Positions 11,386-37,005 of a DNA stretch of 44,170 nt are shown in pieces. Made by a program: the position numbers and the translations under genes. The stretch spans positions 1 through 44,170 of the forward strand of contig JAUSJM010000011.1 in assembly GCA_030647265.1 (NCBI GenBank). Direction: 5' to 3'. The notes under the pieces are model-generated. The model saw only the letters and a program-made list of their open reading frames with translations, made no database searches and was not told where the DNA came from. Every line of letters starts with the position of its first letter. The stretch's first letter is position 1. Origin of the DNA: a bacterium. Its GTDB lineage: Bacteria; Patescibacteriota; Microgenomatia; Daviesbacterales; UBA10151.

Positions 11386-12434
11386 TTCTCCTCCTCATAC
11401 TTTAGAAGTTCTTTTAAGTTACCGCTTAGGAAGGTTCTGATATCGTTGATACCATATTTAAGCATCAGCATTCTAAAAGGTCCAAATCCCCAAGCTATAC
11501 CGGAATAAATTTTGGGATCAATACCACCGTTTTTTAAAACTGTGGGATGGATCATACCTGCTCCTGCCAGTTCCAACCAGCCTACCCCACCACAAACCTT
11601 ACACCCCTTGCCCTTACAAAAAATACATAGTCCATCTACTCCTGCTCCCGGCTCGACGAAGGGATAATATCCTGGGGTCATCCGGACCTTCATCTCCTCT
11701 CCAAAGATACCTTTCAAAAGATGTTCAGAAAGATACTGAAGATTGGCCATACTAAGGCCTTTATCTACATAAACAATCTCAAATTGTTCAAAGGTGTGCT
11801 CGTGTCTGGCATCAAGGTTTTCATACCTAAAACATCTGCCTAAAACCATCATTCTAAAAGGAATTTTGTGTTCCCTCATGATCCTTACCTGGGAATTAGA
11901 GGTGTGGGTTCTTAGCAGTAATTTCCCTGGTTCAATCCCAAACTTCTCACTATCTAAATAAAGGGTATCCCAGAGGTCCCTGGCCGGGTGGTCTTCAGGA
12001 ATGTTTAGTAATCCAAAGTTAAAATCATCAGAATCAATATGGGGGGCATCGTATCTTTGGAAGCCCAAGTTTTGAAACAAACTCACAGTTTTTTCTTCAA
12101 AGGTAGTGATAACATGTAAGTGGCCTTTATCCTTGGGTAACTCTGCAGAACCCAAATCCAGCTTTTCTCCGGTTAACTTTTGGTAACCTCCTTCCCTAAT
12201 CTCTTCCCTTCTTTTGGTAACAGCTTCTTCCAGCCCTGCTTTTACTCTGGCCAAAAGTGGAGCTACAACTCTGAGCTCTTCCTTGGCTAATTTTGGGAAT
12301 TCCTTAGTAGCTTGGGTTATCTCCCCATTTTTCCCGAAAAGGGCCAAAAAAAGGCTATCCAGCCCCTTTAAAGTGCTGGCTGAGGTAATCTTCTGCTGAT
12401 AATCTTTTAAGATTAAAATAAGCTTCTCTTCCAT
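11382..12434 (-). CDS. pheS: Phenylalanyl-tRNA synthetase alpha subunit
   Basis: 350 residues, forms the alpha2-beta2 enzyme charging tRNA-Phe. Motif 2 region (RTHTSNSQVRIM...GRCFRYENLDARHEHTFEQFE) and motif 3 (SGIAWGFGPFRMLMLKYGINDIR) are intact. A four-Cys insertion, CIFCKGKGCKVCGGVGWLE, precedes the GAGMIHP motif and looks like a small zinc ribbon, a variant I recall from other bacterial PheS proteins. Upstream is an extended -10 (TGC-TAAAAT) ending 9 nt before the ATG and no SD. First gene of pheS-pheT. Confidence 0.95.
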   Translation of the reverse strand: MEEKLILILKDYQQKITSASTLKGLDSLFLALFGKNGEITQATKEFPKLAKEELRVVAPLLARVKAGLEEAVTKRREEIREGGYQKLTGEKLDLGSAELPKDKGHLHVITTFEEKTVSLFQNLGFQRYDAPHIDSDDFNFGLLNIPEDHPARDLWDTLYLDSEKFGIEPGKLLLRTHTSNSQVRIMREHKIPFRMMVLGRCFRYENLDARHEHTFEQFEIVYVDKGLSMANLQYLSEHLLKGIFGEEMKVRMTPGYYPFVEPGAGVDGLCIFCKGKGCKVCGGVGWLELAGAGMIHPTVLKNGGIDPKIYSGIAWGFGPFRMLMLKYGINDIRTFLSGNLKELLKYEEEK

Positions 12435-12463
12435 CTTGCCTAGATTTTAGCATATTTAGTCCT

Positions 12464-12898
12464 TTATGGCCTAAAGTTAGAGTTTCTTTTTACCAGCTTA
12501 GCTGTATAGACAATTTCCCTTACTTCCCCATCTTCTCCCTCTATCTCATTTACCCCGGACATTCTTTGGTATTCCTTCAGGTAATCTGATAAAGCCCCTT
12601 GCATCTCTTTAACCTCCTGCCTCATGTTTTTAACCTTTTCAGATAATTCTGTTACCTGGGGCTGCTTCATAATTTGGGCCTTGGTAGCAGCTTTGATTTT
12701 AGCAGCTTCTCTGGCCTGTTCAGAATGTTGTTTATAGGTAGAATCATTGGCAAAGATATCATCCAACATCCCTTTTTGCTTTTTCAGCTCTTCCGAGGTT
12801 TTGTCAATAGAAGAGATATGGTTTTTAATAAGCTGTTCTAAATTCAGCAGGACAGATGCCTGACTGTCATTATTTTTATTTTCTATTTGGTCATCCAT
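12464..12898 (-). CDS. Coiled-coil protein of unknown function
   Basis: 144 residues, highly charged, helical from about residue 15 to 110, with no membrane segment or cysteine, and a short non-helical C-terminal tail (GEDGEVREIVYTAKLVKRN). A -10-like TATATT lies 8 nt before the ATG with TTGTTT 18 bp further upstream, so it is probably leaderless. It ends 29 nt upstream of pheS and may read into it. No family recognised. Confidence 0.6.
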   Translation of the reverse strand: MDDQIENKNNDSQASVLLNLEQLIKNHISSIDKTSEELKKQKGMLDDIFANDSTYKQHSEQAREAAKIKAATKAQIMKQPQVTELSEKVKNMRQEVKEMQGALSDYLKEYQRMSGVNEIEGEDGEVREIVYTAKLVKRNSNFRP

Positions 12899-12944
12899 GA
12901 CTATCTAATATAAAAGAATTTTTCCTAAAAAAACAAGGGGTCAC

Positions 12945-13020
12945 TTGACATAAGGTTTTAATGATGAAACACTAAAAAAGGTCGCCTTCATTAAAAATTC
13001 GGCGAACCAAGGGAGGTGTA
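12945..13020 (+). promoter_or_regulatory. Promoter and structured leader of gene 13023
   Basis: TTGACA (12945-12950) with a weak -10 (AACACT, 12968-12973). The leader folds as GGTCGCC (12980-12986) against GGCGAACC (13001-13008) with one bulge, followed directly by a strong SD GGGAGGTG (13011-13018). A leader with a hairpin next to the SD is unusual here, where most genes are leaderless. Confidence 0.5.
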
Positions 13021-13022
13021 AT

Positions 13023-13217
13023 ATGTGTAAATCAGTAGTGAAATACTTAAGCTCCCACCCCTATTACAATGCTACTATTCATACCATTATCGGTATGGGT
13101 CTGGGGGCTTTGTTTGTCATGTCGGTTTTTAACGGCCATACTTTAAGATGGGGTGTAGGATTAATAGCCTTGGGCCTTCTTGGCCATCTCTATCCTCTTA
13201 CTTTAAAGAAAAAATAA
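13023..13217 (+). CDS. Small two-helix membrane protein
   Basis: 64 residues. Two hydrophobic helices (about 18-36 and 43-58) separated by a short NGHTLRWG turn, with a basic C-terminus (TLKKK). Start supported by a strong SD GGGAGGTG 4 nt upstream. The hydrophobic pattern and SD make it a credible gene, but no family is recognised. It converges on the 262-residue gene on the minus strand. Confidence 0.6.
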   Translation: MCKSVVKYLSSHPYYNATIHTIIGMGLGALFVMSVFNGHTLRWGVGLIALGLLGHLYPLTLKKK

Positions 13218-13218
13218 C

Positions 13219-14007
13219 TTAGTCTTCTTGTGTTAATTGTGCTAGGAGTTTATTTGGGTGGTGATACTGTACCCCTAATTCATCGAACCATCTTGTCCAA
13301 GGAAGTTTAGGGTCAACCATAACATCTTCGGCTTGATCCACCAACCTTGGCACCCAGGTTTCAAAATCAAATTTTGAGGGGAGGGTTATCTGCTCTATCT
13401 CCATTTTTTGGCACCGTATTACGACCTCTGTAAGACTAGGTCTTGTGCCTCTGGTACGAAGTAATAGAAGATTAGCTGGAGGTGATTTTGGCTTTTCTGT
13501 TAATAAGACATGGGGCCAAAGGTTTACAGGAGGACCCACGAGCAAACCAGATTTAGATTTATAATGACCTCCTCTGACTGATTCAGGATGTGTATAAGGG
13601 GCATAACCAACCGTAAGGGTAGTATTAGGGCCGTTGCCGTTGTTTAAAGAATCATAGTGGATTGATTGAAGTGGGCCCTCTGATGTCAAAAGCCACTGCA
13701 CTCGAGTATCGCTTACCGGAGGCATCGTACCGTTGACGAGTCTCAGCTTGGACATATGTAATTGAAAAACAACCTGTTCTCCTGTTAATCCGAATGCTTC
13801 AACTGCTTCCATCGAAGCTACAGCAAAAGCCTTTGGATCATCAATCGTTCTTCGACGGGATATGAAGGTAGTTAAGGCAGAGGTACTTATTCTATCAATA
13901 TCACTGCATTCCCAATCTCGGGGTTTTTGCCCTCCCCAAACATCAAGGAAGCTTTGAAACCGGGTTTCAAGATTACCTTTATCAGGAGGTGGAAGCTCTA
14001 ATTGCAT
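13219..14007 (-). CDS. Hypothetical protein, 262 residues
   Basis: Soluble-looking protein without signal peptide or transmembrane segments; Trp- and Pro-rich with a mixed alpha/beta composition. No motif I can name. It has a very good promoter whose -35 box sits inside the end of rplT, and the ATG is 6 nt after the -10 box. It is therefore an independent, leaderless gene, not part of the ribosomal operon. Confidence 0.6.
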   Translation of the reverse strand: MQLELPPPDKGNLETRFQSFLDVWGGQKPRDWECSDIDRISTSALTTFISRRRTIDDPKAFAVASMEAVEAFGLTGEQVVFQLHMSKLRLVNGTMPPVSDTRVQWLLTSEGPLQSIHYDSLNNGNGPNTTLTVGYAPYTHPESVRGGHYKSKSGLLVGPPVNLWPHVLLTEKPKSPPANLLLLRTRGTRPSLTEVVIRCQKMEIEQITLPSKFDFETWVPRLVDQAEDVMVDPKLPWTRWFDELGVQYHHPNKLLAQLTQED

Positions 14008-14013
14008 AGTGAA

Positions 14014-14042
14014 ATTCTATCACTACAGACTAGTTTGGTCAA
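14014..14042 (-). promoter_or_regulatory. Promoter for gene 14007 inside rplT tail
   Basis: Minus strand TTGACC (14042-14037), 17 bp, TAGAAT (14019-14014), then 6 nt to the ATG. The -35 box and most of the spacer overlap the last codons of rplT. Confidence 0.75.
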
Positions 14043-14397
14043 CTATAGGATAATTTTTGACTTCGGAGATGATCTTTTGGAAGGTTGGAAGATCTTTGAC
14101 AGCTAGTTCAGCCAGGATCTTTCTGTCCAAGGTGATGTTTTTAGTTTTTAAAGCAGCGATAAATTTAGAGTAGGAAACCCCTTCGTTTCGGAGGGCAATT
14201 CCCATCTGGGTAATCCACAGTTTTCTCATATCCCTTCTTCTTTGTCTTCTGCCGGCTAAAGCATACTGCCCGGCATGTAAAGAAGCTTCCTTGGCTTGTC
14301 TCACTAACTTACTTCTTCCACCCTGGAAACCTTTGGTAAGCTTTTTTAGTTTTAGATGTTTTTGATGTGAGGTCACCCCTCGTTTAACCCTAGCCAT
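14023..14397 (-). CDS. rplT: 50S ribosomal protein L20
   Basis: 124 residues, basic N-terminal extension (ARVKRGVTSHQKHLKLKKLTKG) and helical C-terminal half (LWITQMGIALRNEGVSYSKF), typical bL20. It binds 23S rRNA early in 50S assembly. SD AAGGAGG lies 5 nt before the ATG. The SD is contained within a newly noted 51-codon ORF whose stop overlaps this start by 8 nt. Confidence 0.96.
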   Translation of the reverse strand: MARVKRGVTSHQKHLKLKKLTKGFQGGRSKLVRQAKEASLHAGQYALAGRRQRRRDMRKLWITQMGIALRNEGVSYSKFIAALKTKNITLDRKILAELAVKDLPTFQKIISEVKNYPIVDQTSL

Positions 14398-14545
14398 TTA
14401 AACCTCCTTTTCCTCTGACTTTAAAATAGTTAATGAACTTTTGATGCCAGGGAGCAGACCTTTGAATTTGGCCATAGTTTTGCGCTCCTTGGCTGCCGGA
14501 CCGGGAATTTGCCGATTGTCTAAAATTCTTCACTTGTTTTCCCAT
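14390..14545 (-). CDS. Small basic ORF between rpmI and rplT
   Basis: An uninterrupted 51-codon ORF fills the whole gap between rpmI and rplT. Its ATG (14545) is 1 nt after the rpmI stop, and its TAG overlaps the rplT start by 8 nt. The product begins MGKQVKNFRQSANSRSGSQG and ends FKVRGKGGLNG: basic, Gly/Ser/Gln-rich, no acidic residues. A weak SD (GGGAAGAG) is in the end of rpmI. The exact fit favours a real gene or coupling peptide; chance cannot be excluded because it is short. Not a recognised ribosomal protein. Confidence 0.5.
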   Translation of the reverse strand: MGKQVKNFRQSANSRSGSQGAQNYGQIQRSAPWHQKFINYFKVRGKGGLNG

Positions 14546-14546
14546 A

Positions 14547-14747
14547 TTAAGCTCTTCCCAACATTCTTCTGATACTCCTACTAATGGTTTTGCTGACCTC
14601 GGATGTCTTTTTTTGGCGCCTTCGGGCTGACCCGGATTTATGACGCTTTAAATGTCCCACTCTTAATTGATGAGATCTTAAAAGCTTTCCGGTTTTAGTA
14701 ACCTTGATTTTTTTAGCTAGTACCCGTTTGGTTTTCTGTTTTGGCAT
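14547..14747 (-). CDS. rpmI: 50S ribosomal protein L35
   Basis: 66 residues from ATG 14747 (MPKQKTKRVLAKKIKVTKTG), very basic, with the conserved HLKRHKS-x-S-x-RRR segment, typical bL35. The frame is open 10 codons further upstream but the downstream ATG gives the family N-terminus. It overlaps the end of infC by 35 nt, giving the classic infC-rpmI-rplT order. Confidence 0.93.
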   Translation of the reverse strand: MPKQKTKRVLAKKIKVTKTGKLLRSHQLRVGHLKRHKSGSARRRQKKTSEVSKTISRSIRRMLGRA

Positions 14748-15270
14748 CGTTTTCCTTTTTCTGCTTTTCTGGTCCAATTATGGTTGTTAAATTTCTTCCT
14801 TCAAATTTTGTTTCTCTCTCTATAACCGCTTTCCCGCCAATTATCCCTAAAGCCTGGTCAACGACGTGTTTGCCGTTTTCCGGATGAGCCATTTCCCTGC
14901 CCTTAAATCTAACTGTTAGCTTTACTTTATGCCCTTCCTCTAAAAACTCGTTGACCTTCCTCAGTCTTGTTTCCAGATCGTGCTGAGCAATCCTTGGAGA
15001 GAGCCAAATCTCTTTCAGCTCTACTTCCTTTGTGTGCTTTTTGGCAGCCTGTTCTCTTTTCTCCTCCTTATATCTAAACTTTTCAAAATCAGTAATCCTG
15101 GCGACAGGAGGCTCAACTTGAGGAGCCACTTCTACTAAATCCAAGCCTTCTTGCTGTGCTTTCTCCAAGGCTTCTTCCCGGCTGATGACTCCTAATTGAG
15201 TACCATCCGCACCTATTACCCGAAGCTTAGGCGCTTGGATTCTTTCGTTTATTTTATAGTATCTAACTAT
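14713..15270 (-). CDS. infC: Translation initiation factor IF-3, apparent AUA start
   Basis: IF3 checks start codons on the 30S subunit. The recognisable protein begins RYYKINERIQAPKLRVIGADG, continues EALEKAQQEGLDLVEVAPQ and FEKFRYK in the N-domain, and has the C-domain with KVKLTVRFKGREMAHPE. Between the upstream in-frame TAA and the conserved region there is no ATG, GTG or TTG. A perfect SD AGGAGG (15282-15277) stands 6 nt before ATA at 15270-15268, giving 185 residues. E. coli infC starts at AUU and is autoregulated by IF3, so a rare AUA start fits known logic. The next possible start (TTG, 15168) would delete half the N-domain. Confidence 0.9.
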   Translation of the reverse strand: MVRYYKINERIQAPKLRVIGADGTQLGVISREEALEKAQQEGLDLVEVAPQVEPPVARITDFEKFRYKEEKREQAAKKHTKEVELKEIWLSPRIAQHDLETRLRKVNEFLEEGHKVKLTVRFKGREMAHPENGKHVVDQALGIIGGKAVIERETKFEGRNLTTIIGPEKQKKENDAKTENQTGTS

Positions 15271-15324
15271 CTCTTTCCTCCTATAACCGACAGGTTACAT
15301 CTTTTGTCCCTTTGGACAGCCTAG

Positions 15325-15353
15325 ATCTTAACATAATCAAGATCCAAGTTCAA
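15325..15353 (-). promoter_or_regulatory. Promoter for infC-rpmI-rplT in the thrS tail
   Basis: Minus strand TTGAAC (15353-15348), 17 bp, TAAGAT (15330-15325), preceded by TG one base upstream. It lies over the end of thrS. The resulting leader of about 50 nt contains a TGTCC/GGACA hairpin (plus-strand 15305-15318) before the infC SD, a plausible regulatory leader. Confidence 0.6.
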
Positions 15354-17103
15354 TCCTTTTGGTTTCGATATCTTTCTTTATTCTATCAATAAATTCCTCG
15401 AGTTTCATAGCTCCCAAATCTTTTCCTTCCCTTGTTCTGACAGCAACTTTACCCTCTTTTTCTTCTCTATCTCCAATAATTAGCATGTAGGGAATCTTTT
15501 GTATTTGGGCATCTCTGATTTTAGACTGCATCGTTTCTGACCTGTCATCAAGTTCTACTCTGATACCTGAGTTCTTTAATTGTTCGAGTACTTTTTGTCC
15601 ATACTTTATATTCCTATCCGTAATGGGTATAATTTGTACCTGCACTGGAGAAAGCCACACCGGAAAAGCCCCAGCATATTTTTCGATCATAAAAGCCATA
15701 GTTCTCTCAATTGCTCCAATAGAAGATCTATGAATAACTACTGGCTGCTTTCCTTTGCTGTCTTTATCGATATACTTTAAATCAAACCTTTTTGGCAGGA
15801 CAAAATCATACTGGACAGTAAAGGCTGTTTCTTCGCTTCCCCTGACTGTTTTCATCTGCACATCAATCTTTGGACCGTAGAAAGCGGCTTCGTTCTTAGC
15901 TTCATAGAAAGATTCATTGGCCTCAGTGAGAACTTCTCGTAAGATTTTTTCAGCTTCATCCCAGGAATCTTCGTCCTTATAGTATTTCTTTTCGTCTGTC
16001 CTGTCTCCCAAGGAAAGGCGGTAGGTATAATCTTTTCCCTTAACAAAGCCTAAAACTCCATTTGCATAATTGATGAGTTCCAGTACCTCCAAAACTACCT
16101 GTTTGGCCTGATCAGGGGTACAGAAGATGTGGGAATCAGCTAAGCAAAAAGTCCTGACCCGAGTTAAACCAGAAAGTTCCCCACTTTTTTCATAGCGGTA
16201 TAAATCAACAAGTTCTGCGATCTTGATTGGAAGTTCTTTATAGCTTCGAGATTTTGAGGCATAAAGCATGAAATGATGAGGGCAGGACATAGGTCTTAAG
16301 ATTAGTTCATCCTCTTCTATCTTCATTGGGGGGTACATAGTTTCCTTATAATATGGGTAATGTCCGGAAACACGGTAAAGGTCAGTTTTAGCTAAGGGTG
16401 GAGTTACCACATGCTCGTACCCTCTTTTAAGTTCCTCATCAACCACAAATCTTTCGAGTTCTCTTCTGATTGTTGCCCCTTTGGCAGTAAACAAAGGCAG
16501 CCCTTTACCTACCAGATCTGAAAATATATAGAGGCCTAAATCTTGTCCAATCTTTCGGTGGTCCCTTTTTTTGGCTTCTTCCAGCATATTCAGGTAATCA
16601 TCCAGTTCTTTTTGGCTTGGGAAAGCAGTTCCGTAGATTCTGGTGAGCATCTTGTTTTTTTCATCACCTCTCCAGTAAGCTCCAGCCACTGATAAAAGCT
16701 TGAAAGCTCTAATCTCTTCTCGGGGGTTTTGAGCATGTCCTCCCCGGCACAAATCTTCAAAATCACCAGTTTTAACCACAGTGATTGGTTCCTTAACCTT
16801 GATGAGTTCCTCAATCAGCTCCAGTTTATAAGGATTGTCTGAAAACATCATAGCTTCCTCAGGAGAGACTTCTCTTTGTTCAACATTATTCCAGTATTTG
16901 AGCAGGGTTTTCATCTCAGCCTCGATCTTTGGTAAATCTTCTTCAGAGATAGGTTTAGGGAGGTCAAAATCATAGTAAAAACCGTTCTCGATGGTGGGGC
17001 CAATAGTAGGTTTAGCTCCAGGGTGAAGTTTAACCATAGCAGCTGCCAGCAGATGAGCTGTAGTGTGTCTTAGGTTTTCCAGATATTTCTGATCTTGGGC
17101 CAT
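15337..17103 (-). CDS. thrS: Threonyl-tRNA synthetase without TGS domain
   Basis: 588 residues. It starts directly in the editing domain (HTTAHLLAAAMVKLHPGA; later CRGGH), followed by the class II catalytic core with the zinc ligand segment MSCPHHFMLY, motif 2 (SGLTRVRTFCLADSHIFC) and motif 3 (VIHRSSIGAIERTMAFMIE), and an anticodon-binding domain from about residue 490. The usual N-terminal TGS domain of about 60 residues is missing. The start is secure because a consensus promoter ends 6 nt before the ATG, leaving no room for more. It is followed by the infC operon. Confidence 0.96.
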   Translation of the reverse strand: MAQDQKYLENLRHTTAHLLAAAMVKLHPGAKPTIGPTIENGFYYDFDLPKPISEEDLPKIEAEMKTLLKYWNNVEQREVSPEEAMMFSDNPYKLELIEELIKVKEPITVVKTGDFEDLCRGGHAQNPREEIRAFKLLSVAGAYWRGDEKNKMLTRIYGTAFPSQKELDDYLNMLEEAKKRDHRKIGQDLGLYIFSDLVGKGLPLFTAKGATIRRELERFVVDEELKRGYEHVVTPPLAKTDLYRVSGHYPYYKETMYPPMKIEEDELILRPMSCPHHFMLYASKSRSYKELPIKIAELVDLYRYEKSGELSGLTRVRTFCLADSHIFCTPDQAKQVVLEVLELINYANGVLGFVKGKDYTYRLSLGDRTDEKKYYKDEDSWDEAEKILREVLTEANESFYEAKNEAAFYGPKIDVQMKTVRGSEETAFTVQYDFVLPKRFDLKYIDKDSKGKQPVVIHRSSIGAIERTMAFMIEKYAGAFPVWLSPVQVQIIPITDRNIKYGQKVLEQLKNSGIRVELDDRSETMQSKIRDAQIQKIPYMLIIGDREEKEGKVAVRTREGKDLGAMKLEEFIDRIKKDIETKRIELGS

Positions 17104-27550: not shown

Positions 27551-27796
27551 TTGAATAATAATTCCCAAACCTCACCTACTTGTAATCAGTGTGGATCGAA
27601 GCTGATACTGCTGGAAACTAAGGTCCAGAAATTGGAGAAGAGTTTTTCCGCCATGACTACCACCATCTTCCGTTGTTCCAATAAGATTTGCCAGGACGAG
27701 ATTGATAAAAGAACTGCCAAAAGGATAGAACTGAGAAACGAACAAGAGATAGCCCGGCAAAACCGCCTCAACAGGATGCATCTAGGTAATAAGTAA
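27551..27796 (+). CDS. Small zinc-ribbon protein
   Basis: 81 residues. CNQCGSKLILLE and, after about 25 residues, FRCSNKICQDE provide two Cys pairs for a zinc ribbon, followed by a charged helix rich in Arg. TTG start. The cysteine pattern supports a real gene; the role is unknown. It converges on the acyltransferase gene, overlapping its end by 15 nt. Confidence 0.6.
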   Translation: MNNNSQTSPTCNQCGSKLILLETKVQKLEKSFSAMTTTIFRCSNKICQDEIDKRTAKRIELRNEQEIARQNRLNRMHLGNK

Positions 27797-28888
27797 CTTT
27801 TTAGTTCCCCTGAAGATTAAATCACTGCTTCTATGCAGTAACATCCCCAAGAGGATAAAAAATCCTAAATATAAAGCAGTAGCCAAAAAAGGAGGCAAGT
27901 TTTTATATAAAACATCGAAACGGTACATTAAAGGCCAATGGAGAAGATAAATTTCATAGGAATACTTGCCAAAAAGATTTAACAATCTAAATTTAATATT
28001 TTTAAGCATAAAAAGAAGAACTAAGACTGAAGTGGTGAGTAAACTGATCAGCTGTTCCTCTCTCAAGCCTTTACCTACTTCGGAATGGTAGGCAGTATAA
28101 GCAGCTATTATGCTCAAAAAGAGGATGGTTAAGGCTCTGACAAAATTAACCAAAGGTAATTTTTGCAAATATCCCCTGAGGTTATCTAAATACCCTAAAT
28201 GAATGATTATTCCTAAAACCATCCCTAAAGGAAAGGCAAGGGTGTGAAGTAGATAAAGTTTAAGAATGTCCGGGGTAACAGGCAAGGGTAGTTTTAAATA
28301 AAAATAGGAAAATAGAAGTATTATCAAGGGAGGAAGAAGGTTCTTTTTCAGCAGAAAAGCCCAAGGGAAAACCAGGTAATAAAAAAGTAAGAAACTGAAA
28401 TACCATAAAGGAGAATCAAGATTGATATATAAATTAGCCTCAGGATACCAACCCAGGTAGGCAGAAAGCATAGTTTGCCAGGAATAACTCTGATGGGTAA
28501 AAAAGTAATCTAAGATGATCAGTAAAGTGATCACAATCCACAAAGGTAGGAAAAGCTTTAAAGCTCTTTTTTTATAGAAGCTGAGGATGGAAGTCGGTCT
28601 GTGAAGCTGAGAAAGAGTTAGTCCTAAACCGGAAAGGAAAAGAAAAAGGTTGACTCCTACCCCGGAGAGAATGGATAAGGGAAAAAGAAATTGGGAACCT
28701 GAGGATAAAAAATAACCGATGTGCCCAAAGATGATGGTTAAGATAGCAAACCCCTTCAGCTCTTCTGTTAAGGAATTGGAAAAGATAGAGGGGGAAGAAA
28801 ACCTGCGGGAGGTTAAGATGAGTCCTAAAATTAGGATCGCGGCAAAGAGTTGGGTTTGAAAGACGGGGTTAAGGACATTAATTTGCAT
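27782..28888 (-). CDS. Acyltransferase-3 family membrane O-acyltransferase
   Basis: 368 residues, about ten transmembrane helices. ELKGFAILTIIFGHIGYFL carries the conserved His of the acyltransferase-3 family and FLFLSGLGLTLSQLHR with FYKKRALKLFLPLW follows as usual. Such proteins move acyl groups onto surface polysaccharides. Its start overlaps the SGNH hydrolase end by 11 nt; this pairing (AT3 plus SGNH, often fused) is typical of polysaccharide O-acetylation. Confidence 0.85.
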   Translation of the reverse strand: MQINVLNPVFQTQLFAAILILGLILTSRRFSSPSIFSNSLTEELKGFAILTIIFGHIGYFLSSGSQFLFPLSILSGVGVNLFLFLSGLGLTLSQLHRPTSILSFYKKRALKLFLPLWIVITLLIILDYFFTHQSYSWQTMLSAYLGWYPEANLYINLDSPLWYFSFLLFYYLVFPWAFLLKKNLLPPLIILLFSYFYLKLPLPVTPDILKLYLLHTLAFPLGMVLGIIIHLGYLDNLRGYLQKLPLVNFVRALTILFLSIIAAYTAYHSEVGKGLREEQLISLLTTSVLVLLFMLKNIKFRLLNLFGKYSYEIYLLHWPLMYRFDVLYKNLPPFLATALYLGFFILLGMLLHRSSDLIFRGTKKLLIT

Positions 28889-29600
28889 CTATTGTCTGCT
28901 CCCAAAGTTTGTAGCCTGAAGCTGAGGGGTGAAACTCGTCAACGGAGTAAAAGTCGGCATTTTTAGAAACAATCTCCTTTGTAAAATCATAAAGATCTAT
29001 GACCTTCAGGTTTTCCTCTTGGCCAATTTCAGTAATAACTTTGTTAAACTGCCTGGTTCGAAAGTCGAATAAGAAATTATAAGGAGGATATAGTAGCATA
29101 TCGGACCCCAGGTTTGGTAGGTTGATTAAAGTTATCTGGGCAGAAGTTTTATTTTTGAGCTCCAGAATAATCTGGCGGTACGTTTTACCAAAATCCTCCG
29201 GAGATTGGAGGTTGTGCAGGTCGTTTATCCCCACAAATAAGGTTATCTCCTGAGGGTCTTCCAGGATGGCCAAAGAAACCTGGTTTCTTAAAACATCGGC
29301 GCTCTGAACTCCGGGAAGTGCCAAATTAACCAAAGTCACGGAATTTTTCCGGGCCAGTTTTTCTGCTCTAAGGTAAGGGAAAGAATCCTTAAATGAACTA
29401 CTTCCTACCCCGGCAGACAAACTATCCCCCAAGGCAACATATTTAAGGGTGGGAGTTGAACTTTTATGGGGAAAAGTTATGTTTTTTTGAGTGGTGGGGT
29501 TGGGTAGGTTATGATCTCCCATCATGGCATAAATATGAGCATAAGCCCGGTTTAAGTAGACAGAAAGGATAATGAATAAAACGAGCAGGATTTTCTTCAC
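28878..29600 (-). CDS. SGNH/GDSL hydrolase, exported
   Basis: 240 residues. N-terminal hydrophobic signal/anchor (ILLVLFIILSVYL), block I YVALGDSLSAGVG with the nucleophile Ser, block III VGINDLHN, and block V DEFHPSASGYKLW with catalytic Asp and His. GTG start 6 nt after an extended -10 (TGC-TATACT). Likely works with the overlapping acyltransferase on O-acyl groups of surface glycans. Confidence 0.88.
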   Translation of the reverse strand: MKKILLVLFIILSVYLNRAYAHIYAMMGDHNLPNPTTQKNITFPHKSSTPTLKYVALGDSLSAGVGSSSFKDSFPYLRAEKLARKNSVTLVNLALPGVQSADVLRNQVSLAILEDPQEITLFVGINDLHNLQSPEDFGKTYRQIILELKNKTSAQITLINLPNLGSDMLLYPPYNFLFDFRTRQFNKVITEIGQEENLKVIDLYDFTKEIVSKNADFYSVDEFHPSASGYKLWEQTIDAN

Positions 29601-29678: not shown

Positions 29679-30413
29679 GTGAGATCTCTGGTAAATATTA
29701 TTCTTGCTCCCCTGGTCTTTTTTATCTTACTTTTTGCCTATATCCGTTTAGCAGGGCCGATCCCCTTTTCTATAAGCAGTACCACTACTACCAAAGTTGA
29801 TACCTTTAATGTCACAGGTGAAGGAAAAAGCTTTGTCAAACCCGATACAGCTTATGTTACGGTGGGAATTTCTGCCTCTGGAAGTACCGTCCAGCAAACT
29901 CAGGATGAGATCAACTCGGTTATTAACCAAGTCTCAGCTAGTGTCAAAAAGTTGGGTATTGAAGCTGCTGATATTCAAACTACCAACTACAATATAAACC
30001 CCAGCTATGATTACCAGACAGGCAGACAAAAGATTAACGGTTATCAGGCCAGCACTAATTTAAGAATTAAGATTAAAGATTTGGAGAAAGCTAGTCATGT
30101 AATTGATGCTGCTACTGAAGCCGGAGCCAATGAGGTGAGTGGAGTGACTTTTGATGTGGCTGATAAAACCAAGGCAGAAAACGAAGCCAGACAGCAGGCT
30201 GTTACTGAGGCCAAAAAGAAAGCAGAAGAGGCTGCCAAAATTGTCGGTTTTACCTTGGGAAGAATTATCAATTACAGTGAAAACTTTGGGGGTTCACTCC
30301 GTCTCATACCCATGCTGCAAGCAGCTGGAGGAAAAGAAAGTACCGATACTCAAGTAGAACCAGGATCTTCCGAGATCAATCTGACAGTCACCTTAAGCTA
30401 CGAAATCCGCTAA
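29679..30413 (+). CDS. SIMPL-domain (DUF541) exported protein
   Basis: 244 residues. N-terminal hydrophobic helix (VNIILAPLVFFILLFAYI), then the SIMPL domain: FNVTGEGKSFVKPDTAYVTVGI, the long amphipathic stretch with DIQTTNYNINPSYDY, and ARQQAVTEAKKKAEEAAK. These periplasmic or surface proteins form ring-like oligomers in known cases; function varies. GTG start fixed by the promoter. Its end overlaps the convergent sortase gene by 4 nt. Confidence 0.85.
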   Translation: MRSLVNIILAPLVFFILLFAYIRLAGPIPFSISSTTTTKVDTFNVTGEGKSFVKPDTAYVTVGISASGSTVQQTQDEINSVINQVSASVKKLGIEAADIQTTNYNINPSYDYQTGRQKINGYQASTNLRIKIKDLEKASHVIDAATEAGANEVSGVTFDVADKTKAENEARQQAVTEAKKKAEEAAKIVGFTLGRIINYSENFGGSLRLIPMLQAAGGKESTDTQVEPGSSEINLTVTLSYEIR

Positions 30414-30994
30414 CTTACTCTTTGGGCAAAAACCAAAAGCCTTTTTAAAGAAGTTCCTATGGGGGTGCAGGTTTGAAGGATGAGAGTTTGGGTATCAGAG
30501 CTGGTGGATTGATTTATCTCTTGCAAGTACTTTACTTCATTTGGCCAAACTTCCTTTTTATCTTTAACTTCATATATAAATCTTTTCCCATCTTTGTTTA
30601 AGATAATCTGATCACCAAAATTTAGTTCCCCTAACCTTAAAAAAGAAGTGTTTAATCTGGTTAGCTTCCAGGGGGGTTGGGAGGAGTGGGCAAAAAGAAA
30701 GATGTTTCCTCTTTCCCCCGGTAAAGCTGATCCTGAAGCTTCAGCTACTCCCCTCTCTAAGGAAGGTTGATAATCTGAAGGAGCCCAGGGGTTAACATTC
30801 TCTATGACAGGGGCTTGAGCCCGAATCTTGGGAATAGTGATAGAAAATTGACTATTTGATAGAACTTGAGGATCTGGAGTTGAAAAGTAAAGAGAAAAAT
30901 ATGGGTAATAAATAAAACCTAGGATTAAAAGTGAAATCAATATCAGACTGTTTCCCAGATAATATCTAAAAGTTTTCATTTGTATTTTGTTCAT
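30410..30994 (-). CDS. Sortase
   Basis: Membrane transpeptidase that cleaves a C-terminal sorting motif and links the protein to an acceptor. 194 residues (189 if the in-frame ATG 30979 is used). N-terminal helix (NSLILISLLILGFIYYPYF), then SITIPKIRAQAPV, His103 in NIFLFAHSS, and TLILQTC176TP with Arg185: the His-Cys-Arg triad with a TLxTC motif. It follows the three repeat proteins on the same strand, after a terminator hairpin, and the nearest one ends in LPISG plus a hydrophobic helix and basic tail, its probable substrate. Confidence 0.9.
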   Translation of the reverse strand: MNKIQMKTFRYYLGNSLILISLLILGFIYYPYFSLYFSTPDPQVLSNSQFSITIPKIRAQAPVIENVNPWAPSDYQPSLERGVAEASGSALPGERGNIFLFAHSSQPPWKLTRLNTSFLRLGELNFGDQIILNKDGKRFIYEVKDKKEVWPNEVKYLQEINQSTSSDTQTLILQTCTPIGTSLKRLLVFAQRVS

Positions 30995-31004
30995 ATATTT
31001 TTCA

Positions 31005-31029
31005 TAAAAAAGCCTGCAATGCAGGCTTT
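31005..31029 (-). terminator. Intrinsic terminator after the repeat-protein genes
   Basis: Minus strand hairpin AAAGCCTGCA/TGCAGGCTTT followed by U6 (plus-strand A run 31005-31010). It begins right at the stop codon of the LPISG protein and separates it from the sortase. Confidence 0.8.
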
Positions 31030-32167
31030 AAAGTACGAATTGAGCTTTTTTTAGATTTGGATCTCTCCCTGGATGGAGACGTAGGAATAATCCCAGGAAG
31101 AATAAGAATGAAGAAATTAAAGTAATAATGAGAGTCCAAAGATCACCGCTGATAGGAAGTACCTCACCTGCTTCTGCTAGCACCTCACCTGCTACTCCCC
31201 CTGCTGCTGCAGCTTGGGTAACGGAGGTTTGTGAACTTGTGGGAGCAGTGGGGCTTGAAGGTGGCTCCTCCCCTCCTTGGGGAGGGTTTACCGGAGGGGT
31301 GGGAGGAGTAATAATTGCTTCCTCACAGCAACGAAGTATTACCTCGCTGCTATTTATTCCCTCGTTTTCAATAACAATCTCTAATCCAACATCTCCGGTT
31401 CTGATAAAGACATCGCCTAAATTCCCGTTGGCAAAATTATTACCGGAGTTTGCATCCCAATTAATATCATTGTAGATATCAGCAGAATTTAAGACCCAAA
31501 TATCTCGGTTGTTGTCTCGGGTCAGATGAATAGAATTTACTGAATCAGCGCCATTGCCAGTAATTTTAGCGCTGCTATTTCCTGAACCGATAGCTCCCTC
31601 AACATGGCTTTGGTTGATATTCTTATTGCTTGTCTCTTGGCTGGCATCAACATCTCCCGTCTCGATAGAAATGTCACCATTATTATCCTCAGCACCGTTT
31701 CCACCGCTGTTAGCAGTTCCTGATGAGTAATTAGTAATATTAGACTCTTGGTCAACTCGGACAGTGGTGGTATCAGTCTGATTTAAGGCGATGTTATTTT
31801 GGGAATCTGCCCCATTGCCTAAGATTGTGGCAGTAGTAGAGGTTGAACAACAAGAGCTGTCAGCTACCGACTGATTTGCCTCATTGTTAATAGTTTCAGA
31901 AGCTAAAACATCTCCTGTTTGGATAGAAGTATCTCCGGAGTTTCCCGATGCGGTATTATCTCCGGAATTTGCCGTAGTTTGTGTTTCATTGCTAATGTCA
32001 GCATTGTTGGTTTGACTAACATCAGTCGAAGTGCTTTGGGTGATGTTAACTTCACTTGAAGATCCTGTCCCATTACCGACAATGGATAGATCCTCAGCCT
32101 GAGCTTGATTGCTGACAATAACGTAACCTAAAGTTAGTAATGATAAGATAAGAATTTTTCTAGGCAT
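31028..32167 (-). CDS. Repeat surface protein C with LPISG sorting signal
   Basis: 379 residues from ATG 32167 (SD GGAG 8 nt upstream; GTG 32176 is possible). Signal peptide ending NQAQA, three units of the locus repeat (GNG-x-x-S...Q-x-N-x-A-x-I...A-NSG-x-N...TGD), each followed by a variable linker with Cys pairs (SSCCST, LRCCEE), then a Pro-rich spacer (PPTPPVNPPQGG), and a C-terminal sorting signal: EVLPISGDLW, a hydrophobic helix, and the basic tail RLHPGRDPNLKK. LPISG is a close variant of LPxTG. It overlaps the end of protein B by 8 nt. Probably anchored by the downstream sortase. Confidence 0.75.
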   Translation of the reverse strand: MPRKILILSLLTLGYVIVSNQAQAEDLSIVGNGTGSSSEVNITQSTSTDVSQTNNADISNETQTTANSGDNTASGNSGDTSIQTGDVLASETINNEANQSVADSSCCSTSTTATILGNGADSQNNIALNQTDTTTVRVDQESNITNYSSGTANSGGNGAEDNNGDISIETGDVDASQETSNKNINQSHVEGAIGSGNSSAKITGNGADSVNSIHLTRDNNRDIWVLNSADIYNDINWDANSGNNFANGNLGDVFIRTGDVGLEIVIENEGINSSEVILRCCEEAIITPPTPPVNPPQGGEEPPSSPTAPTSSQTSVTQAAAAGGVAGEVLAEAGEVLPISGDLWTLIITLISSFLFFLGLFLRLHPGRDPNLKKAQFVL

Positions 32168-34283
32168 GATATTCACTCCATTTCTTTTTAAAGATGTAGC
32201 CTGTTAAGAGGAGAGGCAGAAGAAGCAGTCCCCAAGCCAGATTCACAGCCACTTTCTTTTTACCTAATGTAGCATTTTGAGAATTATTGGTACTTTGATC
32301 GGCAAAGATTTTCACTCCTGCTACCTGCGTTTGTACCGGTTCAAACGGTTGATTGGTGCTTTGAAAAACAGTATTCAAAGCCAAGATGGGTAAAGTTGCT
32401 TGAATATCAGTATTTTCGGCAGTTGTATTCGTGGCGGATGTTTGGCTGGCCATGGCAGCAGTTGAGTCTATAGAGCTGCCTTGAGGGTTTGCTGCCGTTT
32501 CCTGGCTCATCTTTTTCTGCCCGGGGCCGACAAAGTCCCCGATCCACTTGCCAAAGACGTTGATAGTCACCACCGTGAGTTTGCCGCTACCCACAATGTT
32601 ATTGTTGATAAAGTTAACTAAGTTTGCTACCACGTTGGCATCTCCGGTGTTAATGGTGGAATTACCTCCGGTGTTAGAGGAAGCGCTGTTTCCTCCGCTG
32701 TTGGCAAAAAGATTGATGTTATTTAAAATTTTGGCAACATTATTTTGTATGGTGGTGTTGCTGCTTGATTGATCAATGGTGGCTGAGTTTTGGGAATCTG
32801 TTCCATTGCCGATATTTTGGGCGGTGATGTCACCGTTTGCATTGACAGTAAACTCCGTGCCTTCTGATCCAGCCATATTGCTTCCATCCGGAGCACCTAA
32901 TATTTTTCCCGTCCACTCCCCTGCTTCATTTACTAAAACCAGCCACCAATAACCGCTGTCTATGTTGGAGTTAACAACATTTAAAACCTGAGCGGTAATA
33001 TTAGCATCGCCTGTCGTGATAGTGCTGTCCCCACCGGTATTTTTACTTGCTAGGTTGTCCCCGGTTGTAGCCTGCAAGTTCAAGTTATTGACGATTTGGG
33101 CATCGTTTGTCTGGTAAGTAGTGTCGGTCAGAGTTTGATCCAGTGAAGCACTGTTGGTGGAGTCAGAACCGTTTCCTGTATTGGAGGCTGTCAAACTGCT
33201 GGTTCCGTAGATATCCGGCAAGATGATATCTCCTATGAGGTCTCCAAAGATATTGACTACCCCGATTAAAACATCCCCGCTTAAGTTGTTGTTGAGAAAA
33301 CTCATCACGTTGGCTGAGGTGTTGGCATCTCCGGTTTGAATAGTAGTATCCCCCACGTTTTTGAGAGCGGTGTTATCTCCCGAGTTTGAGCCAAGCAAGA
33401 GATTGTTTTCTAAGGTGGCATCATTATTTTGGAAGGTGGTGCTGGCAGTGTCTTGTGTTAAATCAGTACTGTTGGTTGAGTCAGAACCGTTTCCCGAGTT
33501 TTCCACCAAAGCGTTGGAAAAGATATCACATCCGGAAATGCAGTTACCGGCAAAGTCTAATAATAAATCACCGTTTTGGTCGTCAACGACGTTAAATTCG
33601 GAGACTGCTACTCCTGCCAAGTTGGAGTTTAGATCAGTGACAACTGTTCCCGAAGTGTCAGAATCACCGGTGGAAATAATAGTGTCCCCCACATTTTCAG
33701 AGGCGGTAGAGCTGCCGCTGTCGCTTTGTAATTCAAGGTTGTTAGTAACTGTCGCACTATTTTCCTGAATAGTATTAAGGCTGGAATCACTACTCACGCT
33801 GGCTGAGTTGTCTGAATCCATACCATTTCCAGAATTGGTGACGTTTGTTCCTTCTGAGGTTTCGGAAGGAGAGGTTTCTGCTAAGTTGGTGTTGGCAAAG
33901 GTAGAGATATTGCCGTCAGTCAAAGCATCTCCGGTGTTCAAAGTAGTATCTCCCACATTACCGCTGGCCTGTGGACCGGTGAGAGAGCTGTTATCAGTGG
34001 TAGAATTTTCCTCTGGTGATTGAGTAGTACTTGGGGAAGGGTCATCAGAGGTTTGGTTGTTGGTTGATTCTTCAGGTTTAGGTGTAGGAGTGGGAGTAGT
34101 AGTTTCTTCCAGGGTGGGGGTAGTGGGTTCCGGAGGTGGTGTGGGAGATTGAACTGTCTCGGTAGTAGGCTCGGGTGGAGGTGTAGGAGCGGTAGGTGCA
34201 TCCAGAGCCCAAACCCTTCCCGGCACCACCATCATTAATAATATGGTTATAATGCTTATTATTCTTTTAAATTTTGTTATCAT
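32160..34283 (-). CDS. Repeat surface protein B with Pro/Thr stalk and membrane anchor
   Basis: 707 residues. Signal peptide (ISIITILLMMVVPGRVWA), a stalk of about 90 residues rich in Pro, Thr, Glu and Ser, one partial and four full repeat units (each with GNG-x-DS-x-NS, Q-x-N-x-A, TG-x-N-x-AS-x-N-x-G, INTGDAN), hydrophobic linkers between units (for example VLIGVVNIFGDLIGDIILP), a Ser/Thr/Ala-rich spacer, then a C-terminal helix (VNLAWGLLLLPLLLTGYIF) and basic end. No LPxTG-like motif is visible before the helix, so it is probably a plain membrane anchor. No clear SD. Middle gene of the three. Confidence 0.72.
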   Translation of the reverse strand: MITKFKRIISIITILLMMVVPGRVWALDAPTAPTPPPEPTTETVQSPTPPPEPTTPTLEETTTPTPTPKPEESTNNQTSDDPSPSTTQSPEENSTTDNSSLTGPQASGNVGDTTLNTGDALTDGNISTFANTNLAETSPSETSEGTNVTNSGNGMDSDNSASVSSDSSLNTIQENSATVTNNLELQSDSGSSTASENVGDTIISTGDSDTSGTVVTDLNSNLAGVAVSEFNVVDDQNGDLLLDFAGNCISGCDIFSNALVENSGNGSDSTNSTDLTQDTASTTFQNNDATLENNLLLGSNSGDNTALKNVGDTTIQTGDANTSANVMSFLNNNLSGDVLIGVVNIFGDLIGDIILPDIYGTSSLTASNTGNGSDSTNSASLDQTLTDTTYQTNDAQIVNNLNLQATTGDNLASKNTGGDSTITTGDANITAQVLNVVNSNIDSGYWWLVLVNEAGEWTGKILGAPDGSNMAGSEGTEFTVNANGDITAQNIGNGTDSQNSATIDQSSSNTTIQNNVAKILNNINLFANSGGNSASSNTGGNSTINTGDANVVANLVNFINNNIVGSGKLTVVTINVFGKWIGDFVGPGQKKMSQETAANPQGSSIDSTAAMASQTSATNTTAENTDIQATLPILALNTVFQSTNQPFEPVQTQVAGVKIFADQSTNNSQNATLGKKKVAVNLAWGLLLLPLLLTGYIFKKKWSEYHA

Positions 34284-34302
34284 TTCTTTTCTTTCGGGGT
34301 TT

Positions 34303-34341
34303 GTAGGGTGCTCTTTTGAAGTGCTTATAAGCGCACCCTAC
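34303..34341. repeat. GTAGGGTGC palindrome between repeat-protein genes
   Basis: GTAGGGTGC (34303-34311) and GCACCCTAC (34333-34341), perfect 9-bp arms around a spacer containing GCTTATAAGC. MITE- or REP-like; short relative at 25325. Confidence 0.65.
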
Positions 34342-34361
34342 TCTCCCTAAATTACTTTTCC

Positions 34362-35660
34362 CTAGACCGTCAGGTTAGAAAGCATGCCTAAAAGATCGTT
34401 AAGATCAAAGCTGAAATCGAAACTAAAGTCGATTCCCTCAGGCAGCTCTAATGATTGGTCTTGTCCAAGGATATTAAGGTTGGCAGAATTACTGACATCC
34501 GTATTGGACTCAGCGTCTCCTGTTTTAACCTCTGTTGGATCACCGCCGCTGACCGGTCCGGTGTTATCCTCAGCCTCGTTGTCTCCGCTATCGGCTTTGG
34601 CATAGAGATCGTTATCAATGCCGCATTTTCCGTGTCCGTCAATGACAGAAAGGATTGTTTCGTGTCCGTGTTCGGCACAGTTATTCTGGAAAACTTCCAG
34701 ATTGTTATCGATCTCGGCCTTAATACTGTTATCTGAATCCGAACCGTTACCGAGGATTTTGGCGACAACATCAAATAAACAACAGTCGACATTGGCCCAA
34801 TTAAAATTGGCCGCGTTGTCAACAGTTACATCGGTTGAGGCATCTCCGGTGTCAATTAAGACATCTCCTCCGGTGTTATCCTCAGCTTCATTTTTCCCGG
34901 TATTAGCCTTAGCATAGACATCATTATTGATATCAGCGTTGTTGTTCTGAACCAAAGTTATTGATTTATCCAAATCTAGATCAATACTGTTATCAGAATC
35001 AGATCCGTTTCCGGAAATTCTTAAGCTCACTCCACCGTTGTTATTGCCTCCATTACCAATACTGGCCACGTTAGCGTTAGCTTTGTTGGTAATATCTACT
35101 GTTGTGTCAGCATCGCCTGTGCGGATGGTTACATCTCCTCCGGTGTCATCCTCAGCTTCATTTTTCCCGGTATTAGCCTTTGCATAGACATCATTATTGA
35201 TATCAGCGTTGTTGTTCTGGAAAAGTTCGGTCTCGTGATTTAAATCCAGGTCAACATCGTTATCAGAATCAGATCCGTTACCAGAAATGGTCACGGAGGT
35301 GTCTCCGACGCAGGTGCCGCAGTTTTGTAAATCAGCGACATTGGCGTTAGCCTGATTGCTGATATCAACATTGGTTGTTGCGTCCCCAGTATCTACAGTT
35401 ACGTCTCCTCCTGTATTATCGTTGGCGTCATTTCCTCCCGTGTTAGCCTTTGCATAGACATCATTGGTGATGTCAGCATTATTTTCCTGAACCACAGTCG
35501 TCGTTTGGCTGGTGGTCACATTCAGAGTGTTGTCTGAATCAGAACCGTTACCACTTATATCCAAAGTTGTCGTCTGGGCAAAGGCAGAGGTAGCAAAGGC
35601 GTAGAAAAGAAGTGAAGCGGTGGCAAATGCTGAAGTTACTGCTCTTTTCGTTATTCTCAT
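34362..35660 (-). CDS. Repeat surface protein A, four units of about 90 residues
   Basis: 432 residues. Signal peptide ending FATSAFA, then four tandem units starting near residues 36, 126, 216 and 303; the first two are each exactly 90 residues. Consensus: SGNGSDSDN, alternating polar/hydrophobic strand, Q-x-NNADI-x-NDVYAKANTG-x-N-x-A-x-DNTGGDV-x-I-x-TGDA, then a strand and N-x-AN-x-N-x-A. Linkers carry Cys pairs (NCGTC, DCCLF). Very acidic, Asn/Asp/Gly-rich, no membrane anchor; the end is FSFDFSFDLNDLLGML. Strong SD (GGGGAGGTGA). I infer a secreted beta-solenoid or fibre subunit. Confidence 0.72.
   Translation of the reverse strand: MRITKRAVTSAFATASLLFYAFATSAFAQTTTLDISGNGSDSDNTLNVTTSQTTTVVQENNADITNDVYAKANTGGNDANDNTGGDVTVDTGDATTNVDISNQANANVADLQNCGTCVGDTSVTISGNGSDSDNDVDLDLNHETELFQNNNADINNDVYAKANTGKNEAEDDTGGDVTIRTGDADTTVDITNKANANVASIGNGGNNNGGVSLRISGNGSDSDNSIDLDLDKSITLVQNNNADINNDVYAKANTGKNEAEDNTGGDVLIDTGDASTDVTVDNAANFNWANVDCCLFDVVAKILGNGSDSDNSIKAEIDNNLEVFQNNCAEHGHETILSVIDGHGKCGIDNDLYAKADSGDNEAEDNTGPVSGGDPTEVKTGDAESNTDVSNSANLNILGQDQSLELPEGIDFSFDFSFDLNDLLGMLSNLTV
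34861..35219. repeat. Tandem 270-bp repeat within protein A gene
   Basis: An 89-bp block at 34861-34949 recurs at 35131-35219 with two mismatches, exactly 270 bp (90 codons) apart. The rest of the unit has diverged more, so this block was copied or converted recently. Confidence 0.8.
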
Positions 35661-35901: not shown

Positions 35902-36507
35902 TTAGAAATTTAAGTCAAATACCTGTTTTTCCCCGTTAATTTCACCTACCTGAACCTTTAGATTTGTGTCACTATCATTGATAGGGAATCCCAGTCGGGT
36001 ATATTTGGTGGAGATGGCTTGTACTTCAACCGGATCGTTGTGGATGTCCGGAGCCAGCCATTCAGAGCCGTTATTAATAGAAAGCCTGACAAAATCCCGG
36101 GTCTTTAGTTCTACTCCACTATTAGAATTGTTGCTCAGTTTTAAGTTAAGAATAAGAAAAGTTCTTTCTCCGACAGAAGTTGCCTTCTGTCCTTTCACAA
36201 TGATCTCATCCCTTTTTTCAGCGCTTTCCATTAAATACTTAATCTCTCCTATCTGTTTACCACTATCGTCTTTCACCGGAAAACTGAACTCTTTACTTAG
36301 GGAAAGGGTTGCCTTGGCAGGCTGGATTTGCACTTTTTGGCTGCTATCAGAGGTAACAGATGCTGTTCTGGTTTTTGATAAAACTGTTAAAACTACTCCG
36401 GCAAATAGCAGAATTACTATAACCGCGAGTAATTTTTTCTCACTAACCCTATTTCCTAAAGAAAGCCTATTTAAAAAATTTAAGTTTACAGGTCTGCTAA
36501 TTAACAT
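35902..36507 (-). CDS. Anchored beta-sandwich protein, unknown function
   Basis: 201 residues: a basic N-terminus, one transmembrane helix (LLAVIVILLFAGVVLTVL), a short linker, then a beta-rich extracellular domain with GERTFLILNLKLSNNSNSG, DFVRLSINNGSEW and TRLGFPINDSD. The arrangement resembles DUF4352-type immunoglobulin-like secreted domains. The start overlaps the end of the upstream gene by 11 nt, so the two form an operon upstream of the repeat-protein cluster. Confidence 0.6.
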   Translation of the reverse strand: MLISRPVNLNFLNRLSLGNRVSEKKLLAVIVILLFAGVVLTVLSKTRTASVTSDSSQKVQIQPAKATLSLSKEFSFPVKDDSGKQIGEIKYLMESAEKRDEIIVKGQKATSVGERTFLILNLKLSNNSNSGVELKTRDFVRLSINNGSEWLAPDIHNDPVEVQAISTKYTRLGFPINDSDTNLKVQVGEINGEKQVFDLNF

Positions 36508-36931
36508 TTAAAACTATCTTTGCCTCCTTCGAGCTGCTTTTTTTACTGATTTCCACCTCGATCTCTTTTTGACCGTCGCTCCCTACTAATTTATTTAATA
36601 CGTTGCCATTAGTGTTAGTTTGCACGAATGAGGTGGTGCTCATGCCAAGACTTTTAATCTTTTCTCTATACCAGTTAGTGATAGCAGTAGTATCGTCTGA
36701 ACTTTTAAAGGAGCTAAAATCTGGGGTCGGAGTAGCATGGGGATAGACAAAATCAGAGGAATAATTCCCCTGGGGCGGGGAAAACTTCCGGTTATTAGAA
36801 GAAGTTGGTGTGGGAGTAGGGGTATTTTGGGAATCAGTATTTTTCAGTTGATTGGAGGCCTGAAGGGCATAGAAAGTTGAGAGTAAAACCAGGGTGATGG
36901 TAAACACTAAAATCAAATTAAGGTGTGGCAT
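36497..36931 (-). CDS. Anchored exported protein, unknown function
   Basis: 144 residues from ATG 36931: a hydrophobic N-terminal helix (NLILVFTITLVLLSTFYAL), a Thr/Pro/Ser-rich linker with TPTPTPTSS, then a small domain with DDTTAITNWYREKIKSLGMSTTSF, a pattern seen in proteins annotated only as hypothetical. A TTG 11 codons earlier is possible but lies in the promoter-like stretch TTGTTT-16-TACTAT. Translationally coupled to the next gene. Confidence 0.55.
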   Translation of the reverse strand: MPHLNLILVFTITLVLLSTFYALQASNQLKNTDSQNTPTPTPTSSNNRKFSPPQGNYSSDFVYPHATPTPDFSSFKSSDDTTAITNWYREKIKSLGMSTTSFVQTNTNGNVLNKLVGSDGQKEIEVEISKKSSSKEAKIVLNVN

Positions 36932-37005
36932 ACAAGATAAGACATCCCTATAGTAGATACTCAAGGTAAGGAAACAATTATTAAAAAGGTAAGAACTTTG
37001 TGAGA

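Follow-up and report, generated by a model that had tools for sequence, protein, structure and literature searches.

In the chaplins ChpA-H of Streptomyces, one domain occurs both in short members, which are secreted, and in long members, which are anchored by sortase, and an amyloid layer was proposed to be held on the cell through their co-assembly (PMC5618241). In the Fap and curli systems, nucleator and subunit likewise have repeats in common (PMC12392863, PMC12822426). For bacteria of the candidate phyla radiation (CPR), a sortase family, fam000526, was reported to be near ubiquitous in Microgenomates, and where that report deals with the sortase it leaves the substrate unnamed (PMC6744442). 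Here, we analyse a stretch of 44,170 nucleotides of an uncultured, ultra-small bacterium of the Daviesbacterales (Patescibacteriota, Microgenomatia; UBA10151; assembly GCA_030647265.1, contig JAUSJM010000011.1, positions 1 to 44,170), hereafter the window, in which three consecutive genes encode exported proteins, A, B and C, built from one repeat unit of ~90 residues and followed by a sortase gene. We propose, with a probability of about one in two, that these proteins form a cell-anchored, layered β-solenoid surface assembly of Microgenomates. A would be its secreted subunit, B would be a partner kept in the membrane, and the sortase would fix C as a tether.

Comparison with described surface systems

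Like the Streptomyces chaplins, the locus encodes anchorless as well as putatively sortase-anchored proteins with a common domain. Chaplins differ by carrying the domain PF03777 in proteins of ~55 residues, whereas the locus has ~90-residue units in near-fixed numbers, a membrane-held B and two additional upstream genes, D201 and E155. Fap of Pseudomonas (FapB/FapC; PMC12392863) resembles the locus in its imperfect Asn/Gln/Gly-rich repeats, the fixed repeat number and the presence of two proteins sharing the repeat. FapC has one repeat per layer with facing strands, a layout that may also underlie the arch pattern of our coevolution analysis, and it is the nearest fold to A in the PDB (E 0.019, not significant). 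In contrast to the locus, FapC has layers of ~52 residues with a repeat motif of 38-39 residues, its operon fapA-F lacks a sortase, and no PDB sequence matches A. Curli (CsgA/CsgB) combine a secreted subunit with a surface-bound nucleator through shared N/Q/G-rich repeats, as we propose for the locus, and CsgA is the sixth PDB fold match of A; however, curli repeats are ~22 residues long and no sortase is involved, whereas the locus gives no curlin match and its genome no CsgG. By analogy, the suggested logic of anchored and secreted members with a shared domain matches that of the chaplins and of curli/Fap.

Searches with the profiles of these systems were negative. The curlin family was not matched in A and 56 homologues at E 0.1, at which only scattered noise families appeared, CsgG (PF03783) was not found in the genome of the window (~92% complete), and PF03777 had no match in Pfam scans of the locus proteins and the A homologues. 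Judged by the absence of their profiles and of sequence similarity, the locus belongs to none of chaplins, curli or Fap. Pfam and NCBIfam yielded no credible match for A, B and C, nor for 57 A and 52 B sequences scanned singly, and searches of the A and B profiles against PDB sequences returned nothing convincing, for A nothing at E up to 1. Among the proteins of the cluster only the sortase and, weakly, D201 can be named by family. A literature search of open-access papers, outside of which lie most subscription papers and preprints, returned no prior description of the repeat family or the operon in CPR bacteria; both the repeat family and the gene cluster are apparently undescribed. The sortase of the window is, like fam000526, a sortase of Microgenomates and a candidate member of this family (PMC6744442); the locus adds a candidate substrate and an operon.

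A shared repeat unit in A, B and C

The unit spans ~90 residues with the consensus GNGxxSxN...QxNxAxxxN.....AxTGxNxAxxNTGGxxxIxTGxA.......NxxNxN. A profile built from 171 A-family units detects four units in A (E 3e-117), the fourth being broken by an insertion, four full and one partial unit in B (E 2e-65) and three units in C (E 1e-44), and it gave zero matches in 600 composition-preserving shuffles. In A, the unit starts are 90, 90 and 87 residues apart. An earlier note, made from the sequence of the window, had described three neighbouring genes for exported proteins sharing one repeat and followed by a sortase; open reading frames (ORFs), export signals and the unit profile all agree with this description. 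Unit numbers are almost constant among homologues, i.e. four in A (five if one is split), mostly four to five in B, three in C and two in a further repeat protein, F, described below. Between the units of A, C and F, the linkers contain paired cysteines that are well conserved across homologues (CC, CGC, CxxC), in A as C114, C117, C293 and C294 (34362-35660); these could form vicinal or inter-subunit disulphides.

Each unit looks like a single β-arch

The AlphaFold2 model of A, calculated from 57 sequences, is all-β except for its two ends (mean predicted local distance difference test score, pLDDT, 76.5; predicted template modelling score, pTM, 0.66), with most of the units at 80-95, and the model of B is poorer (pLDDT 64.4). 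Foldseek lists mostly parallel β-solenoids as PDB matches of the A model, none of them significant, FapC being first (E 0.019) and CsgA sixth. A structure search against a viral structure library gave no significant match.

We analysed coevolution over 816 units (effective number of sequences, Meff, 721). The strongest couplings connect positions 6 and 26 (z 11.9) and 34 and 70 (z 7.1), accompanied by the series 30-72, 32-70, 36-66, 38-64, 40-62 and 42-60 together with counterparts displaced by two positions, which places the couplings on i+j = 102 and 104. Along these antidiagonals coupling is confined to even i (mean z 2.0-2.1 vs about 0.4 for odd i), and the same antidiagonals recur separately in the units of A, C and F and, more weakly, in those of B. 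As single pairs reach z 4-6 in column-shuffled controls, the pattern counts here and not any single weaker pair. The unit thus looks like one in-plane β-arch, whose strands 26-42 and 60-76 are opposed via a single side-chain face; a hairpin held by hydrogen bonds is less likely.

No comparable coupling at a constant offset, including ~22 residues, was present across the 816 units. The unit is therefore not a run of short curlin turns, and we reject four curlin-like turns in series; the arch is closer to a FapC layer than to curlin. The β-solenoid type of repeat considered in the earlier note is supported by the all-β single-chain model of A, by the listed PDB matches being mostly β-solenoids and by the arch pattern in coevolution.

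Termini and anchors of B and C

A hydrophobic export signal opens A, B and C. In B, it is followed by a Pro/Thr-rich stalk at about residues 27-105, and the units carry hydrophobic β-segments (VNIFGxLxG, WWLVLVNEAGxW, VNVFGxWxG). The stalk and the C-terminal helix of B had been recognised before; the stalk, however, is N-terminal, and a second, Ser/Thr-rich linker precedes the transmembrane (TM) helix, after which B ends in KKKW. Across the family, 52 of 56 B proteins (loci L038-L098) end with an (I/V)NLA(W/Y)-type motif, a TM helix and basic residues, which agrees with B being held in the membrane and matches no recognised sorting or anchoring signal. NLA is near-invariant within a membrane helix that otherwise varies freely, which suggests that a partner or a protease recognises it.

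C has the layout of an LPxTG-type sortase substrate. The motif LPISG (residues 340-344) is followed by the TM helix and then LRLHPGRDPNLKK, the predicted helix spanning about residues 349-367 and the short basic tail being LRLHPGRDPNLKKAQFVL; the order of LPISG, helix and basic tail proposed at first thus holds. In one related locus (L069:9788-12928), B and C are read as a single ORF of 1046 amino acids, in which the NFAW membrane helix of B runs into the signal-like segment of C, being either a natural fusion or the result of a lost stop codon.

The sortase and the sorting motif of C change together

The window sortase matches PF04203 above the cut-off (E 9.6e-22) and contains H103, C176 and R185; the His, Cys and Arg residues are invariant across six aligned sequences. 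Related loci contain two sortase lineages, type-1 near the window enzyme and type-2 divergent yet bona fide PF04203. With type-1 sortases (24 loci) the motif of C is LPxTG, LPISG, LAATG or LAAAG, and with type-2 sortases (15 loci) it is of the GLSxT type, one further type-2 locus having GLAPTGG. For this covariation of motif and lineage, Fisher p is 4e-10, a value in which relatedness among loci is still included. Because the motif of C and the sortase lineage switch together (24 vs 15 loci, one mixed), we have good, not final, evidence for the sortase acting on C, as the earlier note had supposed. Substrates with GLSxT[SA] accompany the divergent sortase lineage in L042:12218-13970, L054, L058, L060, L065 and others; GLSxT can be read as LPxTG in which Pro and Gly are substituted, and it is a possible new sorting signal.

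A covalent pilus of the Gram-positive type, polymerised by the sortase with A as shaft pilin, could be suspected from a sortase gene lying beside several secreted proteins and from class C being the best-scoring sortase subclass. This score of 57 bits is far below the cut-off of 160, so that we rejected the assignment to the pilus class, and none of the listed class A-F models reaches its cut-off with the window sortase, which has a single N-terminal TM helix. A search of A for an LPxTG-like sorting motif, a YPK pilin motif and an E-box found none of these. Since A has neither a sorting signal nor a pilin motif, we consider such a pilus very improbable and largely refuted. In class C sortases, the lid motif precedes the first core strands. 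The DP[WF] motif of the window sortase resembles the class C lid motif; it is placed after the first core strands, not before, and was not used for classification.

Two further sortases are encoded elsewhere in the same genome. One, on contig C26 (L102:8119-13979), lies beside a protein of at least 1440 amino acids ending in LPSSG and a TM helix, and judged by this sequence layout the pair is a second sortase-substrate system of the genome; the other is on contig C10 (L103:7407-8132).

Distribution and conserved gene order

When one genome per GTDB species was scanned with a pattern, 61 related loci emerged, nearly all labelled as Microgenomates, i.e. Daviesbacteria, Levybacteria, Woesebacteria, Gottesmanbacteria, Amesbacteria, Chisholmbacteria, Shapirobacteria and Roizmanbacteria; one Nealsonbacteria locus and one divergent Wirthbacteria locus lie outside. 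Among the relatives found, a Candidatus Daviesbacteria genome from the same family is nearest, its A being 64% identical. The order E155-D201-A-B-C-sortase is conserved across the 61 loci. Where there is room upstream (48 loci), A lies immediately before B in 47 loci, D201 occurs in all 48 and E155 in 33. A sortase lies within 4 kb in 38 of 50 loci with room downstream, compared with ~1.5% expected by chance from three sortases per ~785 kb, and the sortase next to B-C comes and goes together with C. The earlier note had held that homologues scattered without any sortase neighbour would speak against it; with 38 of 50 loci having this neighbour, no such scatter was seen. Co-occurrence with a sortase is hence systematic in Microgenomates and not universal.

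In other classes of Patescibacteria, a secreted protein resembling A and a membrane protein resembling B are still encoded together, frequently along with a small C-like protein that has an LPxxG-type motif at its end. As the A-B pair is found without sortase and in other Patescibacteria, we regard the sortase as a module.

The fourth repeat protein, F, is a secreted protein of ~200 amino acids with two units. Of 43 loci with room, 18 encode it past the sortase and on the opposite strand; F was searched for and not found in the genome of the window. An example is L052:14512-15111 (-), others being L041, L045, L074, L087 and more, often with CGC or CxC between the units. Near the A-B locus of L030, consecutive large proteins (12093-16965) each end in a dockerin-like GDLNGDGKVDINDLRxVLxxF.

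A, B and C might be paralogous stand-alone adhesins or coat proteins with a common solenoid domain and no co-assembly, C being anchored by the sortase, B in the membrane and A being released or non-covalently stuck. Adhesins commonly contain solenoid repeats, several of the PDB look-alikes of A belong to this group (tapirin, SRRP and PfbA, none significant), B and C each own an anchor, and C and the sortase are sometimes absent. However, A, though anchorless, is the most constant partner of B (47/48), B and C are one ORF in L069, and the near-fixed unit numbers resemble those of defined assembly modules and not those of typical, length-variable adhesins, so that we judge independent adhesins rather unlikely.

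Of 280 genomes sampled from the class, 93 have a B match, as have 47 of 380 from the phylum, many of the matches being partial or weak. The occurrence within the class is low for an essential coat and weighs against a two-dimensional S-layer-like or sheath-like structure, in which high-copy A would tile the cell with B and C as anchors. A soluble subunit with anchors would suit such a coat, D201 with its DUF4352 signal could be an additional part, and ultra-small groundwater cells, probably CPR or DPANN, have envelope periodicities of 10 and 3.8 nm (PMC7906910). In turn, the Pfam and NCBIfam scans contain no match to an S-layer family, and the edges of solenoids would favour one-dimensional stacking. 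A coat instead of a fibre seems improbable to us.

A model of a tethered layered assembly

In the cell-anchored layered assembly, which we prefer, each ~90-residue unit would form one flat layer of facing β-strands, and successive units would stack in register into short solenoids with four (A), five (B) and three (C) layers and free edges. A, exported and anchorless, would be the soluble subunit, B would be kept in the membrane via its C-terminal helix, and C would be cleaved at the LPxTG motif, LPISG in the window, and the adjacent sortase would link it covalently to the envelope. The exposed layer edges of C and B would then bind A or seed its assembly, as they would for the two-unit protein F of other strains, resulting in a tethered fibre or coat. 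A may thus polymerise into a fibre, and a role in attachment is conceivable.

Several observations weigh against this model. The Foldseek search of A against the PDB is without a significant match (best E 0.019, probability 0.14), and the B model gave no match. Same-column coupling is strong between neighbouring units and equally strong for n,n+2 as for n,n+1 units; being equal for non-adjacent units, it reflects common ancestry, and we dropped it as proof of in-register stacking. The B tree needs ~5 sortase-motif switches, just one of which falls between independent well-supported branches. At 12 of 50 loci no sortase is next door and no intact C lies downstream of B; L081 is a partial exception, in which just C-like pieces remain and a sortase lies upstream. 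Of the A-B loci sampled in other classes of Patescibacteria, most are without a neighbouring sortase. Finally, export, expression and polymerisation of A-C are assumed in this model.

We tentatively extend the model to a new class of surface fibre across Patescibacteria, in which single-layer β-arch units of ~90 residues would stack end to end from one protein to another (A, B, C and F) and which, in Microgenomates, a sortase of the same locus with lineage-matched LPxTG or GLSxT signals would fix to the envelope, perhaps for attachment to a host.

Layout of the locus in the window

All six genes are on the minus strand in the order E155, D201, A, B, C and sortase, with ORF boundaries as first noted (Table 1). 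D201 and A are separated by 240 bp, A and B by 78 bp and C and the sortase by 33 bp, whereas B and C overlap by 17 bp; the sortase ORF (30410-30994) overlaps a convergent gene for a SIMPL-domain protein (29679-30413) by 4 bp. D201 and E155 extend the cluster by two conserved upstream genes, and DUF4352 is matched weakly in six of nine sequences of the D201 family (best E 5.5e-4). The source genome comprises 785 kb in 35 contigs (~92% complete) and contains A-B-C once. A membrane protein of the acyltransferase-3 type and a GDSL hydrolase adjoin the locus (27782-29600) and are also found near the locus in L040 and L066, as a possible surface-modification pair.

Table 1. Features of the locus, with positions in the window.
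Feature	Position	Strand	Description	Support
E155	36497..36964	-	small membrane-anchored protein, conserved upstream	present in 33/48 loci within 6.5 kb
D201	35902..36507	-	membrane-anchored, weak DUF4352 match, upstream of A	48/48 loci with room; DUF4352 in 6/9 members
Protein A	34362..35660	-	432 aa; signal peptide followed by 4 units and an amphipathic FxFDLxxLL segment at the C-terminus, anchorless; proposed secreted subunit	
A unit 1	35295..35564	-	residues 33-122	unit profile 104 bits
A unit 2	35025..35294	-	residues 123-212	unit profile 102 bits
A unit 3	34761..35024	-	residues 213-300	unit profile 120 bits
A unit 4	34464..34760	-	residues 301-399, insertion-interrupted	two pieces, 24 + 45 bits
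Protein B	32160..34283	-	707 aa; signal peptide followed by a Pro/Thr stalk, 4 full units and 1 partial unit, a Ser/Thr linker and a C-terminal membrane helix; proposed partner held in the membrane	
B C-terminal signal	32190..32246	-	(V/I)NLAW at start of membrane helix, then basic tail	52/56 homologues
Protein C	31028..32176	-	382 aa; signal peptide followed by 3 units, a Pro/Ser/Thr linker, LPISG, a TM helix and a short tail; proposed tether anchored by the sortase	
C sorting motif	31145..31159	-	LPISG, residues 340-344	sequence; LPxTG/LAxTG aligned in relatives
Sortase	30410..30994	-	194 aa; single N-terminal TM helix, H103/C176/R185	PF04203 E 9.6e-22

Significance

For the sortase family described as near-universal in Microgenomates (PMC6744442), the locus offers a candidate substrate that is conserved, together with partner proteins and an anchor signal that can be tested; the candidate anchor signals include a second type, GLSxT, which goes with a sortase lineage of its own. 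Should A stack, be it into a fibre or a coat, the system would be a candidate at the molecular level for the appendages resembling pili, or the ordered envelopes, observed on ultra-small cells. It would then also be a candidate for how CPR bacteria hold their hosts, and its large-layer design would join the few functional-amyloid-like solenoids.

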